Shown here piece by piece: positions 22,879-40,642 of a stretch of DNA of 64,000 bases (the first letter of the stretch is position 1; each line of letters starts with the position of its first letter). A program made the position numbers and the translations under genes. The DNA comes from Natroniella sulfidigena (GTDB lineage: Bacteria > Bacillota > Halanaerobiia > Halobacteroidales > Halobacteroidaceae). The stretch is taken from the NCBI RefSeq assembly GCF_023223645.1, contig NZ_JALKBY010000004.1:1-64000 (forward strand), read 5' to 3'. The notes below the pieces were generated by a model. It saw only the letters and a list, made by a program, of their open reading frames with translations. It had not been told where the DNA came from and ran no database searches.

Positions 22879-22899
22879 AATTTATGTATTCTAAACTAA

Positions 22900-22990
22900 G
22901 CACCAATTCCCTACGCTGGTATTATCCAGATCAGGTTTAAGAGACTAGAGTCTTATCTCTTTCTCAGCCCACCTAGAGCGCCCCTATTGG
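22900..22990 (-). promoter_or_regulatory. TPP riboswitch (THI element)
   Basis: The minus strand carries the conserved GGGGCGCTC, GGCTGAGA and CCTGATCTGGATAATACC segments followed by AGCGTAGGGAA. The closing stem P1 is ACCAAT with ATTGGT. The 3' strand of P1 leads directly into the antiterminator sequence, so aptamer folding and antitermination exclude each other. It controls thiD-C-S-G-H-E by transcription attenuation. Confidence 0.96.
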
Positions 22991-23017
22991 TCTTTCCATT
23001 TTTTATTTTCTATTTAA

Positions 23018-30076: not shown

Positions 30077-31744
30077 TTAAACTTCCATAATAATCGGTAA
30101 GATCATTGGCTTTCTTCTGATCTTATTATATAAATAATTATTTAAGGCATCTCTAATTTCAGATTTTAAAACAGACCACTCAGTAACATTATTCTCTTCA
30201 CACTTGCTGAGTGCTTTTTCTACTTTTTTCGTAGCATCTTCAATTAATTGTTCAGATTCTCTAATATAAACAAAACCACGCGAAATAATATCAGGGCCAG
30301 ATAAGACTTTACCTTGACTATTAATAGTAACAACAACCATCAAGATACCATTTTCAGATAAAACCCTTCTATCACGCAGAACAATATTACCTACATCTCC
30401 AACTCCTAAACCATCAATCAATACTCGTCCCGCTTTAACACTACCTTCAATTTGACCTTCTTCAGGTGTCAATCTAATCTTATCCCCCAAATCAGGTATA
30501 AAGATATTTTCCTTAGGAACACCTACAGTTTCAGCTAATTTAGCATGCAAATGTAAGTGTCTGTATTCTCCATGTACCGGGAAAAAGTACTTAGGTTTAG
30601 TTAAATTCAGCATTAACTTAAGTTCTTCTTGGCTTGCATGTCCAGAAACATGAACACCAGAGACAGCTTCATAAACTACATTTGCTCCTTGCTTAAATAA
30701 TTGATTGATTGTCCGACCAACTGCCTTAACATTTCCAGGAATAGCAGTAGCAGAAACAATAACTGTATCTCCATCATCGATACTGATTTGACGATGGTCA
30801 CCTCTAGCTATCCGCGTCAATGCAGCTCGTGGTTCACCTTGACTTCCTGTTGTCAATAATACTACCTTATGATCAGGTAATTTCTTTACCTCATGTAGAT
30901 CAATCAACATACCTTCAGGAATATCTAAATAACCCAAATCTTTAGCAATTTGAACATTATTTAACATACTCCGACCACTTAAAGCAACCTTACGATCATA
31001 CTTCATAGCTGCATCAAAAACCTGCTGAATTCGATTAATATTAGAAGCAAAGCTAGCTACAATAACTTTTCTCTCTGCTTCTTCATAAATTTCATCTATC
31101 GTCTTTTTAACCTCTCTTTCTGACATTGTAAAACCTTCACGTTCCACATTAGTACTATCAGAAAATAAAGCTAACACTCCTTCATCTCCTAGCTCTGCTA
31201 ATTTATGCAGATCAGCCATCTTCCCATCAATTGGTGTCTGATCAAATTTGAAATCACTAGCATAAACAAGTGGCCCAGCTGGAGTATGAACTGCTAATGC
31301 ACAAGCATCCTGAATACTATGGTTAACTCGAATAAATTCAACCTTAAAAGAACCAACTTGAGCTGAATGCCCTGGATAAACATGCTTCAAATAAGAGTTA
31401 GACAATAGATTATGAGATTCTAGTTTACCTCTTAATAACCCTAGAGTTAATTTCGTTCCATAGACGGGAACATTAATCTTCTTCAACAAGTAAGGAATTC
31501 CTCCTATATGATCCTCATGCCCATGAGTTAAAACAACCCCTTGAATCTTATCCCGATTCTCAAATAAATAAGACATATCTGGAATAACTAAATCTATTCC
31601 ATATAGATCATCTTCAGGAAATTTCACCCCGGAGTCTATAATTAGTATCTCATCATTTACTTCAACCGCCATCATATTTTTTCCAATTTCCCCTATTCCT
31701 CCTAGAGGAACAACTGTAACTGACCCTATTTTATTGTTTGACAT
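30077..31744 (-). CDS. rnj: Ribonuclease J
   Basis: A 555-residue metallo-beta-lactamase/beta-CASP nuclease with 5'-exonuclease and endonuclease activity, central to mRNA turnover and rRNA maturation in Firmicutes. Zinc motif HGHEDHIGG is near residue 75, with further His and Asp in NHSIQDA and YASDFKFD. Beta-CASP motifs FASNINRIQQ, TTGSQGEP and SGHASQEE follow, then the C-terminal RNase J domain. It sits between dapA and tepA, the position of rnjB in Bacillus. I keep rnj because only one copy is visible. Ribosome site GGAGG lies 14 nt before the ATG, rather far. Confidence 0.95.
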   Translation of the reverse strand: MSNNKIGSVTVVPLGGIGEIGKNMMAVEVNDEILIIDSGVKFPEDDLYGIDLVIPDMSYLFENRDKIQGVVLTHGHEDHIGGIPYLLKKINVPVYGTKLTLGLLRGKLESHNLLSNSYLKHVYPGHSAQVGSFKVEFIRVNHSIQDACALAVHTPAGPLVYASDFKFDQTPIDGKMADLHKLAELGDEGVLALFSDSTNVEREGFTMSEREVKKTIDEIYEEAERKVIVASFASNINRIQQVFDAAMKYDRKVALSGRSMLNNVQIAKDLGYLDIPEGMLIDLHEVKKLPDHKVVLLTTGSQGEPRAALTRIARGDHRQISIDDGDTVIVSATAIPGNVKAVGRTINQLFKQGANVVYEAVSGVHVSGHASQEELKLMLNLTKPKYFFPVHGEYRHLHLHAKLAETVGVPKENIFIPDLGDKIRLTPEEGQIEGSVKAGRVLIDGLGVGDVGNIVLRDRRVLSENGILMVVVTINSQGKVLSGPDIISRGFVYIRESEQLIEDATKKVEKALSKCEENNVTEWSVLKSEIRDALNNYLYNKIRRKPMILPIIMEV

Positions 31745-32016: not shown

Positions 32017-32895
32017 CTAAATCAAATTATATTCTGCTAGAACATCTTTTAATTCAGCCTCTTGTTGATCATTTAAACCATTTAATGGTGCTCTGAATCC
32101 ACCTACTTGCTGACCTATTAAATTCAATCCAGTCTTTACAGGAATAGGATTAGTTGTAATAAACATAGTCTTAAACAACTTATTAAGCTCTTTATTTTTT
32201 TCAATAGCCTTTTCTACCTTACCAGCTTTAAAAGATGTAATCATCTCTTTAATCTGATCACCTACTAAATGAGATGATACACTGACTACACCAGTTCCAC
32301 CAATCGATAACAATGGTAAAATCAAACTATCTTCCCCACTATAAATTTTAAAATCATCATCAGTCATTCTGTGAACCATAATTGCTTGATCTACATCACC
32401 GCTTGCTTCTTTAAGTGCAACAATATTATCAATTTTAGATAATTTAGCTACTGTTTCAGGTTCAACATTTCTTCCTGTTCTTCCTGGTACATTATAAAGC
32501 ATTACAGGTAGATCAGTTACATCAGCAATCGATTTAAAATGATTATAGAGCCCATCTTGAGGAGGTTTGTTATAGTATGGCGTTACTAACATAACACCAT
32601 CAACACCTATCTCCTCTGCTTTCTTAGTTAATTCAATACCAGCTTGTGTTGAATAAGAACCTGTTCCTGCTATTATAGTAGCTTGCTCACCTACAGCCTC
32701 ATTAATAACTTCCAATAACTTTACCTTTTCTTCTACTGTCAATGTAGGTACTTCTCCTGTCGTTCCTAATACAACTAAACCATCAGACCCATTATTAAGT
32801 AAATATTCTGCTAGTTCTACAGCTCGGTCATAATCAACCTCTAAATCATCATCAAAAGGGGTTACCATTGCTGTTAATACTTCACCAAATTCCAT
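32017..32895 (-). CDS. dapA: 4-Hydroxy-tetrahydrodipicolinate synthase
   Basis: DapA condenses pyruvate and aspartate semialdehyde, the first committed step to lysine, diaminopimelate and dipicolinate. Motifs: GTTGEVPTL, the Tyr in YNVPGRTG, and the Schiff-base Lys in IVALKEASGD. Length is about 292 from ATG 32895, 9 nt after GGAGGTG. A GTG further upstream lies inside that ribosome site and is rejected. It is the last gene of the riboswitch-controlled operon. Confidence 0.96.
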   Translation of the reverse strand: MEFGEVLTAMVTPFDDDLEVDYDRAVELAEYLLNNGSDGLVVLGTTGEVPTLTVEEKVKLLEVINEAVGEQATIIAGTGSYSTQAGIELTKKAEEIGVDGVMLVTPYYNKPPQDGLYNHFKSIADVTDLPVMLYNVPGRTGRNVEPETVAKLSKIDNIVALKEASGDVDQAIMVHRMTDDDFKIYSGEDSLILPLLSIGGTGVVSVSSHLVGDQIKEMITSFKAGKVEKAIEKNKELNKLFKTMFITTNPIPVKTGLNLIGQQVGGFRAPLNGLNDQQEAELKDVLAEYNLI

Positions 32896-32916
32896 ATTTA
32901 CAAACACCTCCGCTTT

Positions 32917-34137
32917 TTAGTCACCTAAGTTAAAATAATCATGTAAGGCACACAGGCTTTTTTCTTCATCTTTCTTCTTAATTAAACAAGAAATTGTAGT
33001 ATGTGAGTCTGTCGTTTGATAAATCGATACATCTGCATCAGTTAAGGCCTCAACGATTCGAGCCATTACTCCAGGTACACCTACCATTCCAGCTCCTACA
33101 ATCGAAACTTTAACAAAATCCTGTAATAATTCATATTGATATCCTTCTTCATCTAACAATTCAGAAGCTAATTCTACAGCCTCAGTATTAATCATAAACG
33201 TAATTAAATCAGGTCTAACATTAATAAAATCTACACTTATTCCTTCATCAGCTAGTATCCTAAAACACCCTAAAGCAGTAGCATCTTCTTGTTCCGCTCT
33301 GGGAAAAATCTTAAGCAGATCTAAGTTAGTTCTACTAGTAATTCCTGTAACTATTTTATCACCTTTAATCTCTATCTCATCTTGCTCGAAAGCATTAGAA
33401 ATTACAGTTCCCTGTGCATCACTAAATGTAGAACGAATAATTACTGGAACCCGCTCCCTTTTAGATATTTCAGCTGCCCGAGGATGAATAACCCTTGCCC
33501 CTTGATAAGCTAATTCACAGGCTTCATTATAGGTAACATGCTTTAAAGTTTTAGCATTAGGAACTATTCTAGGATCTGCTGTCATCACCCCTTCAACATC
33601 CGTATAAATCTCTACCATTTCAGCATGTAAAGCAGCTCCTAAAGCACAAGCAGTTGTATCAGAACCTCCTCGACCTAAGGTTGTAATCTCTCCACTCTCT
33701 GAAATCCCTTGAAATCCAGCTATAATTGGAATCTTTCCTTTATCTAAGACATCTAATATCTTACGAGCCTTAACCTCTTTAATCCGGGTATTACCAAAGT
33801 TATCATCAGTTATAATCCCAGCTTGAGCTCCAGTCAATGGTTCAGCTTCATAACCTCTTGCTTTTAAAGCCTGAGTAATAACTACACTTGAAATCACTTC
33901 ACCACAAGACATTAATAAGTCTTTGGCCCGGGGATCTATAGTATCATATACTTCTTGTGCAAAGTTAATTAACGTATCTGTAGCATATGGGGCTCCTTCT
34001 CTACCGATTGCCGATACAACGACAACAGGCTTATACCCTTGGTTAATACAGTTGATTACTTTATCAATCACCTGTTCTCGTCGTTTAGGCGTAGCAACCG
34101 ACGAACCACCAAACTTTTGAATTACTATCTTATACAT
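32917..34137 (-). CDS. dapG: Aspartate kinase
   Basis: Aspartokinase phosphorylates aspartate at the head of the pathway. It has 406 residues with the N-terminal KFGGSSV, the substrate loop TLGRGGSDTTA, YTDVEGVMTADPR, and two C-terminal ACT domains (VSIVGAGMVGVPGV). Position between asd and dapA matches Bacillus dapG, the diaminopimelate-inhibited isozyme used in sporulation. Feedback specificity cannot be read from sequence. The ribosome site is GTGAGGTG. Confidence 0.95.
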   Translation of the reverse strand: MYKIVIQKFGGSSVATPKRREQVIDKVINCINQGYKPVVVVSAIGREGAPYATDTLINFAQEVYDTIDPRAKDLLMSCGEVISSVVITQALKARGYEAEPLTGAQAGIITDDNFGNTRIKEVKARKILDVLDKGKIPIIAGFQGISESGEITTLGRGGSDTTACALGAALHAEMVEIYTDVEGVMTADPRIVPNAKTLKHVTYNEACELAYQGARVIHPRAAEISKRERVPVIIRSTFSDAQGTVISNAFEQDEIEIKGDKIVTGITSRTNLDLLKIFPRAEQEDATALGCFRILADEGISVDFINVRPDLITFMINTEAVELASELLDEEGYQYELLQDFVKVSIVGAGMVGVPGVMARIVEALTDADVSIYQTTDSHTTISCLIKKKDEEKSLCALHDYFNLGD

Positions 34138-34157: not shown

Positions 34158-35156
34158 TCAAATTAACTTCTCAGCAATTTGAATCGTATTTAAAGCAGCC
34201 CCCTTCCTTAAATTATTAGCCACTACCCATAAATTCAAACCATGCTCAACAGTATCATCTTTTCTGATTCTTCCGACCAATACATCATCAGTTTTCTCTG
34301 TATCCAACTGTACAGGATAAGCCAATTCAGCTGGATTATCGACGACCTTTACTCCAGAAAAATCATCTAATAATTGCTTAGTTTCTTCTACAGTCAATTG
34401 ATCATCAGTTTCTAAGTTAATAGCTTCAGCATGACCAATCAAAACTGGTATTCTCACAGCAGTTGCTGTTATTTTTATCGCTTCATCATCCATAATCTTC
34501 TTAGTTTCATTGACCATTTTTAGCTCTTCTTTAGTATAACCATCATCAAAGAAGACATCAATATGTGGTAAGGCATTAAAAGCAATCTGTTTAGGATAGA
34601 CCTCTGATTTTACTTCATCACCAGCTGAAATTGCTCTTGTCTGTTCTTTTAATTCATCCATTGCATCTTTACCAGTTCCTGATACAGCCTGATAAGTAGA
34701 AACGACTATTCTTTTAATTCCAACTTGATCATAAATAGGTTTTAAAGCTGCTACCATCTGAATTGTAGAACAATTTGGATTAGCTATAATTCCATTATGT
34801 TTAGCTATATCATCTGGGTTAACTTCAGGTACTACTAATGGTACCTCATCATCCATTCTAAAAGCACTACTATTATCTATTACGACAGTACCTCTTTTTA
34901 CTGCTTCAGGGGCCAACTTCTTACTAGCACTTCCTCCCGCACTAAACAAGGCAATATCAACATCCTCAAAAGAATCAGGAGTTGTCACCTCAACAACATA
35001 CTCTTCCCCTTTACAAGTCATTACCGTACCAGCAGAACGTTCTGTCGCCAACAACTTCAAATCAGTGAATGGAAAATCCCTCTCCTCCAAAATACTTACC
35101 ATCTCACGACCTACTGCTCCTGTTGCACCTACTACCGCTACATTTAACTTTTCCAT
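34158..35156 (-). CDS. asd: Aspartate-semialdehyde dehydrogenase
   Basis: Asd reduces aspartyl phosphate to aspartate semialdehyde. It has 332 residues with the NADP loop VGATGAVGREM, the active Cys in NPNCSTIQ, and the catalytic His in VLIGHAEA. The ribosome site is AAGGAGGAA. It precedes dapG by 20 bases. Confidence 0.96.
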   Translation of the reverse strand: MEKLNVAVVGATGAVGREMVSILEERDFPFTDLKLLATERSAGTVMTCKGEEYVVEVTTPDSFEDVDIALFSAGGSASKKLAPEAVKRGTVVIDNSSAFRMDDEVPLVVPEVNPDDIAKHNGIIANPNCSTIQMVAALKPIYDQVGIKRIVVSTYQAVSGTGKDAMDELKEQTRAISAGDEVKSEVYPKQIAFNALPHIDVFFDDGYTKEELKMVNETKKIMDDEAIKITATAVRIPVLIGHAEAINLETDDQLTVEETKQLLDDFSGVKVVDNPAELAYPVQLDTEKTDDVLVGRIRKDDTVEHGLNLWVVANNLRKGAALNTIQIAEKLI

Positions 35157-35182
35157 ATTTAATTCCTCCTTGATAAGATTAA

Positions 35183-35260
35183 TTTATAATCAACAATTTA
35201 TAATTAATAGTTAAAAGCATTTTAATTATAAATTGTTAACTGCTAATTGTCAATTGATTA
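35183..35260. repeat. Short palindromic element between dpaB and asd (copy 7)
   Basis: Degenerate 7-mers (TATAATC, AACAATT, TATAATT, AATAGTT) face complementary units (TAATTGT, CAATTGA). The right arm runs into the dpaB stop codon, and the left arm starts just upstream of the asd ribosome site. It is the most decayed two-armed copy. Confidence 0.6.
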
Positions 35261-35851
35261 GATTCCTTTATATTCAATAATCACAGGTTGTAACTGTTTA
35301 CCTTCTAACGCATATTGAGTCGTTTCAACAACCAAGTCCATTCTAGCAACCAAAGAATTTGGTTTCTCAGTCGGATTATCCTGCCCTAAAGGAACAAGAT
35401 ACAAATTAGGTATATTTAAAGCTTTACCTATATTGGCAGCATTATTGCCTAAAGCATCATTGGTCGCTACAGCTAATACTGTTGCTCGACTATTACGCAA
35501 ATGGGCCTTTACTGCCATAACTACAGTTGTATCAGTAATTCCATTGACTATTTTAGCTATAGTATTTCCTGTACAGGGAGCAACAATCAATATATCCAAT
35601 AACTCCCTAGGGCCAATCGGCTCAACTTCCGAAATTGATGTCCAAGGCTTGTTCCCTGTAATCTTAGTCACTTCTTCTCTCCACTTTTGGGGTGTTCCAA
35701 ATCTAGTCTTATATGTTTGAACTGCTTCTGATAAGATAGGCTGAACTTCCGCACCTAAATCGACCAACCTCTTCATTTCAGGTAAGACTTGCTCTAAAGT
35801 ACAATGCGAACCAGTTAAAGCAAAACCAATCTTCTTCCCAGCAACATCCAC
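35258..35851 (-). CDS. dpaB: Dipicolinate synthase subunit B
   Basis: A flavoprotein-fold subunit (SpoVFB) that works with DpaA to oxidise dihydrodipicolinate to dipicolinate, the calcium chelator of the spore core. Motifs: KKIGFALTGSHCT, EPIGPRELLD, APCTGNTIAKI, AVATNDALG and KPNSLVARMD. GTG 35851 is chosen, 9 nt after GGAGG; a TTG two codons upstream would be too close. Length is about 197. Its presence indicates endospore formation. Confidence 0.95.
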   Translation of the reverse strand: MDVAGKKIGFALTGSHCTLEQVLPEMKRLVDLGAEVQPILSEAVQTYKTRFGTPQKWREEVTKITGNKPWTSISEVEPIGPRELLDILIVAPCTGNTIAKIVNGITDTTVVMAVKAHLRNSRATVLAVATNDALGNNAANIGKALNIPNLYLVPLGQDNPTEKPNSLVARMDLVVETTQYALEGKQLQPVIIEYKGI

Positions 35852-35936
35852 AGACAAGCACCTCCCTATAAGCTGTGAATTATAAACTTTGAGCCATAAG
35901 TTATGTGATCCATTTTATCTATATATAATTAGTAGC

Positions 35937-36821
35937 TCATTGCTCTTTTAGTATAATTCGAGGGATAATCTCACTTAAAATCTTTCCAGCACTTGTAGGG
36001 GCAACTTTACCAGGCAATCCTAATGCTAATTCAGCCTTGATTCCTAGTTCTTGAGCTGCTTCAAAATCAGTTCCTCCAGGTGCAGAAGCTAAATCAATAA
36101 TGATAGCCTCTGGATTTACCTGTTCTAAAATTTCTCGATCTAAGACCATAACTGGAACTGTATTAAAGATAAAGTCTGCTTCAGCTATCTGGTCAGCTAA
36201 ATCTACAAAATCAACCGGAGTTAATCCTAGCTCAACTGCTCGTGCTAAATCTTTAGGCTTTCTTGCCACACCATAAGTCTTACTACCTAAATCATGTAAC
36301 ATTCTAGCTAGTGTTAGACCAACTCTACCTAATCCTAGTACAAAAGAATTATTATTATGCAATGTAATTGGCATCTCCCTGATAGCAATTTCAATCGCTC
36401 CTTCTGCTGTCGGAATTGCATTTAAGATAGCCACTTCATCAAGGTCAGCCAACTCTACTAATTGAAGTTGATACTTCTGGCACCATTCTTTAATCTTAGG
36501 TTTAGCAAACCCTATAAAAAAGATGGTATTAGGCTCTAAACTAGCAAAAAAGTCCTCTGTTAAATAAATATCCAGATTGTTAAAGGTCTTTTTTATCTTA
36601 TACTCAGTATCAGTTCCAGTCATCGGAGCTATTACTGCTTTTAAATCAGTAGTTTCTAATTCTTCTAATGAATTAACTATATCTATATTTTGCTCATTTA
36701 ATTGACTAGGTCTTCCCACTACTTCTAAAGCAGCTCCCTGGTTTAATAAGTTAGATATCAATTCTAACTCTCGAGCATCTCCCCCCAAAACAGCAACCTC
36801 TAGTCCTGTTAAATCATACAT
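35937..36821 (-). CDS. dpaA: Dipicolinate synthase subunit A
   Basis: A 294-residue NAD(P)-binding subunit (SpoVFA). Motifs are VAVLGGDARELE at the N-terminus, GLGRVGLTLARML for the dinucleotide loop, and IIDLASAPGGTDF and GLPGKVAPTSAG at the C-terminus. The ATG follows AGGGGGG. In Bacillus the pair is switched on in the mother cell. Here it lies between dapB and dpaB inside the lysine-riboswitch operon. A CATAGAAT box at 36867-36874, like sporulation-sigma -10 elements, may give it a separate promoter. Confidence 0.95.
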   Translation of the reverse strand: MYDLTGLEVAVLGGDARELELISNLLNQGAALEVVGRPSQLNEQNIDIVNSLEELETTDLKAVIAPMTGTDTEYKIKKTFNNLDIYLTEDFFASLEPNTIFFIGFAKPKIKEWCQKYQLQLVELADLDEVAILNAIPTAEGAIEIAIREMPITLHNNNSFVLGLGRVGLTLARMLHDLGSKTYGVARKPKDLARAVELGLTPVDFVDLADQIAEADFIFNTVPVMVLDREILEQVNPEAIIIDLASAPGGTDFEAAQELGIKAELALGLPGKVAPTSAGKILSEIIPRIILKEQ

Positions 36822-36915
36822 CTAATTATCCCCCCTTTCTAGTTTGACTTAATCACTATCAATATCATTCTATGTATAACTAAAAGAGATAGTGCTTGTC
36901 TAAAATTAATTAATT

Positions 36916-37719
36916 CTAATTAAATTCAATTAAATTTTCTAACCCATAAATAACTCCATCAATCTCATCTAATTTTCTAATTGCTAATTCAACCCCTGGC
37001 ATGAAGGATTCACGATTGATCGAATCATGTCTAATCTTTAATGTCTGACCTAACCCTCCCAAAATAACCTCTTGATGAGCAACTAGTCCAGGTAATCGTA
37101 AACTATGGATATTAATTCCATCTTGTTCTCCACCCCGAGCTCCTGGTAACTTTTCGATCTCTTCTACTTGCTCTTTTTGCTCCTCTGCTAAATTCTCTTT
37201 AATCAACTCTGCAGTCTTAATTGCAGTCCCTGATGGAGCATCTATCTTTTGATCATGATGTAACTCTATAATTTCCACATCATTCATAAATTTAGCCGCT
37301 TGCTTACTAAATTGCATCATTAAGATAGCTCCAATAGCAAAATTAGGAGCAATAATCACTTTAGTATCTATTCCTTGATTCCACTCTTCAATCTTAGTTA
37401 AATCTGCTTCAGTAATTCCTGTAGCTCCTACTACTATATCAACCTCTTTTTCGATAGCTTCTTTAATATCTCCCATTACAACTTGGGGATTAGTAAAGTC
37501 AACTATCACGTCAGGCTCACTATCACATATTACCTCTGCTAAATCTTCTTTTATCTCAACTGTTGGCCCGTCTAACCCTAGAAGTTGATTGATATCTTCT
37601 CCAACATCAGTTATATCAACTGCTCCTACTAATTCAAAATCATCGACTCTAGCAATCATTCTTACTACTTCTTGGCCCATCTTTCCGTTGGCCCCTGCTA
37701 CTACTATTTTTTTAGTCAT
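36916..37719 (-). CDS. dapB: 4-Hydroxy-tetrahydrodipicolinate reductase
   Basis: DapB reduces the DapA product towards diaminopimelate and lysine. It has 267 residues with the dinucleotide loop VAGANGKMGQEV, VDFTNPQV, GATG, PNFAIGAILM, the catalytic HHDQKIDAPSGTA, and the C-terminal RHDSINRESFMPGV. ATG 37719, 7 nt after GGGAG, is chosen; the ATG six codons earlier contains that site. It is the first gene after the lysine riboswitch. Confidence 0.96.
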   Translation of the reverse strand: MTKKIVVAGANGKMGQEVVRMIARVDDFELVGAVDITDVGEDINQLLGLDGPTVEIKEDLAEVICDSEPDVIVDFTNPQVVMGDIKEAIEKEVDIVVGATGITEADLTKIEEWNQGIDTKVIIAPNFAIGAILMMQFSKQAAKFMNDVEIIELHHDQKIDAPSGTAIKTAELIKENLAEEQKEQVEEIEKLPGARGGEQDGINIHSLRLPGLVAHQEVILGGLGQTLKIRHDSINRESFMPGVELAIRKLDEIDGVIYGLENLIEFN

Positions 37720-37753
37720 TATTTCACTCCCTTTCATAATTCATGAAATTTAA

Positions 37754-37866
37754 TTGATATTAAGTTTAAGGCTAAGTCTAAGTTTAAGTAAAACCTAAGC
37801 CCTTATGCTTTTAACGGTTGGCTTAGACTTAAACTCAACCTTAGACTTAAGCTATTTTGTAATTAA
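37754..37866. repeat. Palindromic element with period-6 arms in the dapB leader (copy 8)
   Basis: It starts TTGATATTAAG, then units AGTTTA, AGGCTA, AGTCTA, AGTTTA and AGTAAA. The core has AACCTAAGCCCTTATGC, followed by complementary units (CTTAGA, CTTAAA). It ends near TTTTGTAATTA. It lies between the riboswitch terminator and dapB, so it is transcribed when the switch is on. Confidence 0.75.
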
Positions 37867-37901
37867 GTTTAACTTTTAATTTAGATAACTATTCTGTTCA
37901 T

Positions 37902-37938
37902 AAAAAGAAAGCGATTGGTAGCACTACCAACCGCTTTT
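37902..37938 (-). terminator. Terminator controlled by the lysine riboswitch
   Basis: AAGCGGTTGGTA pairs with TACCAATCGCTT, followed by TCTTTTT on the minus strand, just after the aptamer. Confidence 0.9.
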
Positions 37939-37950
37939 TGTTCAACTCCT

Positions 37951-38121
37951 GATTAGATAGCACTCCACTAGATCAACTAGTGACAGACCTGAATTTATTA
38001 AATACAGACCCAACCTAGCTGGAAGGCCACTCGCAGCTAGATTTCGGCAATAATCCCTTTCTTTATAAATCTTACAGCCAATTCCTTATAAATACTGATG
38101 ATTATTGCACCTCAATCTTTA
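37951..38121 (-). promoter_or_regulatory. Lysine riboswitch (L-box)
   Basis: The minus strand carries the conserved L-box blocks in order: GATTGAGGTGCAA, CAGTAT, GAAAGGG with ATTGCCGAA, GGTCTGTCACT and GTGGAGTGCTATC. Spacing agrees with the Bacillus lysC leader as I remember it. Together with the terminator downstream it is an OFF switch: lysine binding stops transcription before dapB. It is the leader of the whole dapB-dpaA-dpaB-asd-dapG-dapA operon. Confidence 0.92.
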
Positions 38122-38137
38122 TATATGCATTTATTAT

Positions 38138-38166
38138 ATTGTCTAATATTTAGACTAATTTGTCAA
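38138..38166 (-). promoter_or_regulatory. Candidate promoter of the lysine-riboswitch operon
   Basis: TTGACA (38161-38166) and GACAAT (38138-38143) are 17 bases apart on the minus strand, with the start expected a few bases before the aptamer. Confidence 0.6.
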
Positions 38167-39432: not shown

Positions 39433-39562
39433 GTTAATGTCGCAAGGATGCCACCTGATTCATCTGGTGGAGGAATTGCAACGGTTTATCTTTTTATATA
39501 GAATAAAACATTATACATATTAACATAATAATAGGTTATATTATAATTAAGAGGTGATAAGA

Positions 39563-40642
39563 TTGCATTTAACTTTGCACCACTTGAAATTATACAAACC
39601 TACTAAAACTAAATTAAACAAAATTGAATTGCTATCTAAGAATTGGAATAAAGCAATTCGTTCAGCACTTAAAATTGTTAAACATTGGGGATTTACTGCT
39701 TATACTAAATCCCATAAACAGACATATAGAGTTTTAAGAAATAATTATAAGCTTCCTAGTCAAGTAGCCAATGAGGCGAATCGTAAGGCTGTTGAAGTTT
39801 ATAAAGTTAATAAAAACTCTAATTTTAATCGAATAGTACCTGTTAGATTGGTACACAAAAAATCCTTTGAAATTATCAATGATGAAGGCAAATGTTTTGC
39901 TAAGATATTAACCCCTAATAAAGATAAAATTTATTGTCCTTTATCTTTTGGAGAATATCAATTAAACTACCTTGAAGATGATAATTACAAGATTAAAACT
40001 GCACAACTATATAAATCTAATAATGAATGGTATTTAGATTTAACTTTAGAATATGAACAACCTAAAAGAGATACTGATACAACTCTAGGTATTGATTTAG
40101 GTATTATCAACCTTGCTACATTTAGCATTTTAGATGAAGCTCAAACTGTTTTGCATACAGAACATATATCAGGCGAACAATTAAGATTTAAAAGAATGAG
40201 GTATAAGCAAAAACGTAAAGCTAAAGCTAGATCCTCTGGAAGTTTAAAAACTTCTTTAATTAAGGAAAATCAAATCTGTAAACAACTTAATTGGAAGATT
40301 GCCAATAGGATAGTTGATCTAGCTGATAAATATAACTCTAAAATAGTATTTGAAGATTTAAAGAATATCAGAAAAAATATTACAAATGATAACTCTTTAA
40401 ATAACTATGAAAAGAACAACTGGGCTTTCTACCAACTAAAACAATTTATCAAACATAAAGCTAATTTAAAAGGACTTCCAGTTGAAGAAATCAACCCCAA
40501 AAATACCTCTCAAATCTGTTCTGTATGTGATCAAAAAGGATTTAGATCTGACTATAAACAAGACTTCTTTAAATGTGCTAATGGACATATTCTAAATGCT
40601 GATAGTAACGCAAGTATAAATATTGCTAAAAAAGCTATTTAA
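39563..40642 (+). CDS. tnpB: TnpB RNA-guided nuclease
   Basis: A 359-residue IS605-family TnpB. The RuvC residues are visible: Asp in GIDLGIINLA near 195, Glu in IVFEDLKNI near 268, and Asp in NADSNASINIA near the end. A zinc finger lies before the last motif (CSVC then CANGH, with a His where many TnpB have Cys). TnpB uses the RNA from the element's right end to cut DNA at sites next to a short target-adjacent motif, which helps the element persist. TTG 39563 is preferred because it is 6 nt after GAGGTG. It appears intact. Confidence 0.88.
   Translation: MHLTLHHLKLYKPTKTKLNKIELLSKNWNKAIRSALKIVKHWGFTAYTKSHKQTYRVLRNNYKLPSQVANEANRKAVEVYKVNKNSNFNRIVPVRLVHKKSFEIINDEGKCFAKILTPNKDKIYCPLSFGEYQLNYLEDDNYKIKTAQLYKSNNEWYLDLTLEYEQPKRDTDTTLGIDLGIINLATFSILDEAQTVLHTEHISGEQLRFKRMRYKQKRKAKARSSGSLKTSLIKENQICKQLNWKIANRIVDLADKYNSKIVFEDLKNIRKNITNDNSLNNYEKNNWAFYQLKQFIKHKANLKGLPVEEINPKNTSQICSVCDQKGFRSDYKQDFFKCANGHILNADSNASINIAKKAI

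Follow-up and report, generated by a model that had tools for sequence, protein, structure and literature searches.

Organization of the gene cluster

The window analyzed here is the whole stretch of 64,000 nucleotides (nt) from Natroniella sulfidigena (contig NZ_JALKBY010000004.1, positions 1 to 64,000), and the subject is a minus-strand cluster in which the genes of dipicolinate synthase, dpaA and dpaB, lie downstream of a lysine riboswitch (L-box). The gene order after the riboswitch is dapB-dpaA-dpaB-asd-dapG-dapA-rnj. The components are as follows.

37950..38123, minus strand: lysine riboswitch aptamer (L-box, RF00168), covariance model 117.6 bits, full model 1-182
36916..37737, minus strand: dapB (TIGR00036, 270 bits)
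35937..36821, minus strand: dpaA (spoVFA), dipicolinate synthase subunit A (NF006162, 366.3 bits, cut-off 261)
35258..35857, minus strand: dpaB (spoVFB), dipicolinate synthase subunit B (TIGR02852, 261.4 bits, cut-off 229)
34158..35156, minus strand: asd, aspartate-semialdehyde dehydrogenase (NF011456, 488 bits)
32917..34137, minus strand: dapG-type aspartokinase (NF006068, 554 bits, cut-off 474)
32017..32907, minus strand: dapA, 4-hydroxy-tetrahydrodipicolinate synthase (TIGR00674, 343 bits)
30077..31744, minus strand: RNase J (rnj), the conserved last gene of the cluster (TIGR00649, 666 bits), whose position is kept in relatives

Each subunit of dipicolinate synthase scores above a curated cut-off, and DpaA falls slightly under the stricter TIGR02853 (311.9 vs a cut-off of 319.65). 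For dapB, an internal ATG at 37719, which stands behind AAAGGGAGTG, is the probable start. No terminator was found by sequence scan in the gap between dapB and dpaA of the window. A preliminary description of this DNA had placed an L-box at the head of an operon with dpaA and dpaB between dapB and asd; the RF00168 match, the terminator described below and the profile-matched genes bear this out.

Lysine riboswitch and its expression platform

The score of the aptamer (117.6) is far above the gathering score of 30 (E 8.9e-31), and the match is full-length. The elements surrounding the aptamer are as follows.

38138..38166, minus strand: candidate sigma-A promoter of the leader, TTGACA-17-GACAAT (consensus scan, 10/12)
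37908..37937, minus strand: intrinsic terminator stem-loop, followed by a T-rich tail
37920..37964, minus strand: antiterminator, AGTGCTATC (37964..37956) paired with GGTAGTGCT (37928..37920), duplex -17.2 kcal/mol

The tail on the 3' side of the terminator-like stem (37937..37908) is CTTTTTATGA. The antiterminator consists of nine pairs, in which AGTGCTATC overlaps the 3' strand of P1 and GGTAGTGCT lies within the terminator stem-loop. Since the antiterminator shares bases with both the P1 3' strand and the 5' arm of the terminator, P1 is excluded in one of the two states. In folded transcripts ending at 37919 or 37917, the antiterminator lies at most 0.3 kcal/mol from the best fold, and once the terminator is complete, it displaces the antiterminator, so the two structures are mutually exclusive. 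As judged from this arrangement, the leader has the layout of a transcriptional OFF switch, and we infer its response to lysine. The gene directly 3' of the riboswitch, dapB, belongs to the lysine pathway. The second and last lysine riboswitch of the genome heads lysA, so both L-boxes control lysine genes. Between the terminator and dapB (37738-37870) lie about 120 nt of imperfect AAGTCTAAGTTTAAG-type repeats in facing orientation.

Distribution of the arrangement

All 13 genomes of the order carry dpaA with a lysine riboswitch upstream on the same strand, at a distance of about 1 to 1.5 kb. In a phylum sample of 149 genomes, 115 have dpaA, 94 have a lysine riboswitch and 68 have both; the riboswitch is located 868-1138 nt upstream of dpaA in 34 of the 115 dpaA-bearing genomes, which represent 16 families. 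Named carriers of the riboswitch-dapB-dpaA arrangement are Orenia metallireducens and Halanaerobacter jeridensis, both in the family of the window, as well as Moorella mulderi and Candidatus Acetocimmeria pyornia.

The phylum sample and the order combined give 44 riboswitch-led loci. The order riboswitch-dapB-dpaA-dpaB is found in 44/44, and asd comes next in 44/44 once second copies of dapB are allowed. Four members of the window's family (loci L069, L071, L072 and L073 in G008, G010, G011 and G012) have such a second dapB, located between dpaB and asd, and three of them also have a second dpaB; the second set could have a separate role in growth or in the spore. In three genomes of one family (f10; G065, G104 and G137) dpaA is strongly diverged (152-175 bits, under the cut-off), and the riboswitch-dapB-dpaA-dpaB order is kept.

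There are 81 dpaA loci that lack a nearby riboswitch; the analysis covered 80 of them (all but G066), and in 49 of the 80 dapB directly precedes dpaA. The idea that strict filters had overlooked a weak riboswitch there was rejected: cmscan at gathering scores detected no lysine riboswitch or T-box in 41 of the 49 dapB-adjacent loci or in L148, which has a longer gap. This distribution suggests that the riboswitch-dapB-dpaA arrangement is old.

A conserved sporulation-type promoter between dapB and dpaA

The promoter elements in the gap between dapB and dpaA lie downstream of the switch.

36867..36900, minus strand: internal sporulation promoter, GACAAGCAC (36900..36892), 17-nt spacer, -10 element CATAGAAT (36874..36867)

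The sporulation-type box that had been pointed out before dpaA at 36867-36874 is thus present, as CATAGAAT on the minus strand, 45 nt ahead of the dpaA start codon. GACAAGCAC combines the -35 part with a SpoIIID-like GACAAGC, which we take to fit the SpoIIID consensus. The sigma-K consensus has a CATANNNTA-like -10 element and an AC in the -35 region at about 16-17 nt. The promoter of the window reads GCAC-N17-CATAGAATG, and its -10 element matches this consensus at 8/9 positions.

Alignment of the gaps between dapB and dpaA gives the conserved element (GA)CAAGCACC-N16/17-CATATANT. The box CATANNNT is present in the 150 nt preceding dpaA in 40 of the 44 riboswitch-led loci (shuffle expectation 7.4) and in 44 of the 49 riboswitch-free loci (7.6), that is, in 84/93 gaps overall vs about 16% by chance. 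At the junctions dpaA-dpaB, dpaB-asd, asd-dapG, dapG-dapA and dapA-rnj of the same operons, it is at or below chance. In a second collection, from which 6/80 loci were discarded as duplicates, all 31 gaps between dapB and dpaA contain CATANNNT, giving 115/124 in total. GCAC lies 16-18 nt before the box in 88 of these 115 gaps, and AC is found there in the other 27; within the order, GCAC stands at a spacing of 16-17 in 13/13 genomes. Across the 149 genomes, the exact signature ACAAGCACN{15,19}CATATANT is matched 39 times, and 25 of these sites lie at dpaA. Judging from this conservation, CATAGAAT is the -10 element of a predicted phylum-wide sigma-K-like promoter, conserved equally with or without a riboswitch upstream.

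The corresponding regulators are encoded in the genome. spoIIID is above its cut-off in 13/13 genomes of the order and intact sigK in 9/13, the window's genome being included in both counts; its sigK (G000:C15:1060-1716) scores 335 bits with TIGR02846 (cut-off 298.65). With a sigma-K-like promoter conserved in the gap and both regulators encoded in the genome, dpaAB transcripts made during sporulation should begin 3' of the riboswitch.

Use of the promoter by another factor, such as the earlier mother-cell factor sigma-E, is an unlikely reading. The CATANANT motif fits sigma-E too in 75 of the 93 gaps, but the element conserved upstream of it is GCAC, 16-18 nt away, which is of the sigma-K type and not a sigma-E -35 element. 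Moreover, both species studied transcribe dpaAB under sigma-K: passages in the available text of two reports describe transcription of dpaAB from a sigma-K promoter in Clostridioides difficile, as in Bacillus subtilis (PMC3789822), and sigma-K control of spoVFAB in B. subtilis (PMC5629000).

As a separate observation, four genomes of the order carry sigK in two pieces, an N-part and a C-part that are divided near codon 70, which resembles the effect of skin-type elements. The parts are only about 2 kb apart in G004 (G004:C35:22893-25543) and lie on different contigs in G010 (C6:209765-209977 and C7:61136-61609) and G009 (C87:7553-7756 and C44:22010-22489); for G012 the N-part alone is listed (C31:30780-30992). 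The window's genome has, besides its intact sigK, an extra C-terminal part of sigK with a stop (G000:C4:6699-7175).

A probable operon with two entry points

The aptamer, the terminator and antiterminator, the gene order, the conservation of the promoter and its independence of the riboswitch are features of the sequence itself. Together they make it highly likely that the cluster forms a single operon entered at two points, one controlled by the riboswitch in growth and the other a sigma-K start between dapB and dpaA in the mother cell. In growing cells, transcription would begin upstream of the riboswitch. With lysine bound, P1 would hold and the terminator (37937..37908) would halt transcription; without lysine, the antiterminator would form and RNA polymerase would pass dapB towards asd-dapG-dapA. 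In the mother cell, the sigma-K form of RNA polymerase would start at about 36860 to give a dpaA-dpaB-asd-dapG-dapA RNA that carries neither the riboswitch nor dapB and would not be shut off by lysine.

The position of the promoter just after dapB has a further predicted consequence. Dipicolinate branches off the shared intermediate, as stated in the available text of PMC10789242, and DapB takes the same intermediate towards lysine. The promoter lies right behind the gene of this competitor, and therefore the mother-cell transcript would provide for dipicolinate synthase and its precursor but not for the reductase that competes for the same substrate; we infer that this omission of dapB is of metabolic benefit. 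Lysine, the diaminopimelate of the wall and the dipicolinate of the spore all branch from one intermediate, and the enzymes of the branches are encoded in one cluster. The sequence suggests that the branches are kept apart by a switch that responds to a nutrient in growth and by a promoter for development right after the one competing gene.

The stronger claim, that the riboswitch governs dpaAB so that external lysine lowers dipicolinate synthesis, had been put forward in the preliminary description and is very improbable. It draws on two facts: dpaAB follows the switch on the same strand, and no terminator was detected in the gap between dapB and dpaA. However, the sporulation promoter is conserved in this gap both with and without an upstream riboswitch. 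Furthermore, under such control DpaAB would drain the common precursor just when lysine is scarce: SpoVFAB made in vegetative cells yields dipicolinic acid and lowers the pools of lysine and meso-diaminopimelate, according to the accessible part of PMC5629000. Lysine control of spore dipicolinate was thus set aside on account of the conserved internal promoter (84/93 and 31/31 gaps), and a lowering of the dipicolinate genes by lysine in the medium is not supported for sporulation. The more cautious suggestion that the box may bypass the riboswitch can be strengthened, since the promoter is conserved in both contexts: the internal promoter very probably lets dpaAB ignore the riboswitch, which plausibly sets mainly dapB and the vegetative read-through towards asd-dapG-dapA.

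Several points weigh against the two-entry operon. The -10 element of the window, CATAGAAT, differs by one base from CATATAAT of the relatives, and this copy of the promoter may be weaker because it misses the last A of the sigma-K consensus CATANNNTA. The conservation of the box partly reflects shared descent. The internal promoter does not exclude read-through from dapB, and some lysine-controlled vegetative dpaAB RNA is expected. The function of the promoter in the window, with its start site and expression, is a prediction.

Control of the distal genes by the riboswitch may also be incomplete in the genus of the window, as another promoter stands 5' of asd.

35225..35253, minus strand: sigma-A-type promoter 5' of asd, TTGACA-17-TATAAT (12/12), within a dispersed intergenic repeat

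This promoter could partly supply asd-dapG-dapA independently of the switch. The 12/12 form is a genus feature, being found in 2/13 genomes of the order (G000, the window's genome, and G009). The AT-rich intergenic stretch that carries the promoter (35165-35258) contains part of itself again in inverted orientation and recurs in partial form at six other genomic sites, and four other places match the stretch holding the promoter at 70-86% identity. The asd promoter may be repeat-borne.

Candidate masking of the dpaA ribosome-binding site

Should asd-dapG-dapA be supplied by read-through, dpaA would be translated in growing cells as well. An extended form of the two-entry operon addresses this point: the read-through mRNA would fold the promoter spacer, as an anti-Shine-Dalgarno arm, onto the ribosome-binding site of dpaA, and only the shorter sigma-K mRNA, without this 5' arm, would be translated efficiently. 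The idea is similar to that known for the lysozyme gene e of phage T4, in which the long early transcript hides the ribosome site and the shorter late transcript leaves it free. Only the working idea is alike; the genes are unrelated, and a candidate bacterial developmental switch is concerned here. We regard masking as a tentative extension that is rather doubtful at present.

36830..36892, minus strand: candidate masking hairpin, promoter spacer (36892..36878) complementary to the Shine-Dalgarno (SD) region of dpaA (AAAGGGGGG, 36838..36830)

The idea was evaluated in those 76 of 108 loci that have an adjacent dapB, a box no farther than 75 nt away and an SD score of at least 5; the 108 omit four loci that either gave no start or had a start overlapping the SD, as well as the loci without a box. 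The 24 nt before the -10 box were compared with the SD region, and shuffles of the spacer that left the -35 part unchanged served as the reference. Complementarity between spacer and SD reaches p<=0.05 in 28 of the 76 loci, where about 4 are expected. The control genes give 3/70 (dapB), 6/76 (dpaB), 5/74 (asd), 4/54 (dapG), 4/73 (dapA) and 4/56 (rnj) at the same level. When each of 36 families is represented by one locus, the locus's own arm outpairs the arms of other families (11/36 at <=0.05; Wilcoxon p=2e-4). Opening the ribosome site costs on average 11.0 kcal/mol for the long RNA, against 6.0 for the short RNA and 8.2 when the spacer is shuffled (n=76, p=3e-9), and the mean SD accessibility is 0.27 vs 0.38 with the upstream part shuffled. 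Among independent loci, 7/26 are at p<=0.05, with 3/31 and 2/26 in the controls.

Contrarily, about two thirds of the loci are individually non-significant, the loci are related so that the p-values are optimistic, and the opening-energy test gives 0/13 at p<=0.05 and 1/13 at p<=0.1 in the order of the window. In the window itself, the spacer-SD duplex amounts to -11.2 kcal/mol (p=0.01 vs spacer shuffles), yet the full fold does not favor it: other folds compete, and the SD is 0.73 unpaired in the long and short RNAs alike. The hairpin was dropped as a feature of the window for this reason. Masking could serve as a lead for the relatives, being weak in the window's order and not a finding for the window. 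If it is real, asd-dapG-dapA would be reached by read-through of the dipicolinate genes in growth with no dipicolinate made and without draining the needed precursor.

Other features of the window

A thiamine pyrophosphate (TPP) riboswitch (RF00059, 73.7 bits) lies on the minus strand at 22891-22995. On the plus strand, 39554-40642 is a 362-aa open reading frame (ORF) with a zinc-ribbon CSVC...C near its end and no partner gene in the ORF list; it presumably resembles OrfB/TnpB-type transposases.

Comparison with known systems

The leader of the window is like the L-box of the B. subtilis lysC type in having a full aptamer, a terminator and antiterminator, and lysine-pathway genes downstream, and is unlike it in that the operon led by it holds dpaAB. 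In the part of the 2785-genome survey of lysine riboswitches that could be consulted, dpaAB is in none of the operons of Table 1 (Mukherjee et al. 2017; PMC5584792). dpaAB of C. difficile (CD2968-CD2967) shares a sigma-K-type promoter with the window (PMC3789822). The lysine riboswitches of that species, in contrast, head lysC-lysA and asd-dapA3-dapB1-dapH, away from dpaAB, as given in the available text of PMC11477304.

The riboswitch class, the genes and the sigma-K control of dpaAB are known already. The joint layout of riboswitch, dapB, spore promoter and dpaAB-asd-dapG-dapA was not found in print; no paper with a lysine riboswitch before dpaAB was found in the open literature, and this search mostly did without subscription papers, leaving the absence unproven. 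The closest counterpart is the spoVF operon of B. subtilis, whose order we take to be dpaA-dpaB-asd-dapG-dapA under sigma-K, with dapB located elsewhere. The window has the same gene order from dpaA on and the same type of promoter before dpaA, but differs in having dapB and the lysine riboswitch directly upstream in one same-strand cluster. As many families of the phylum share the layout, it may represent an ancient design of which B. subtilis has lost a part.
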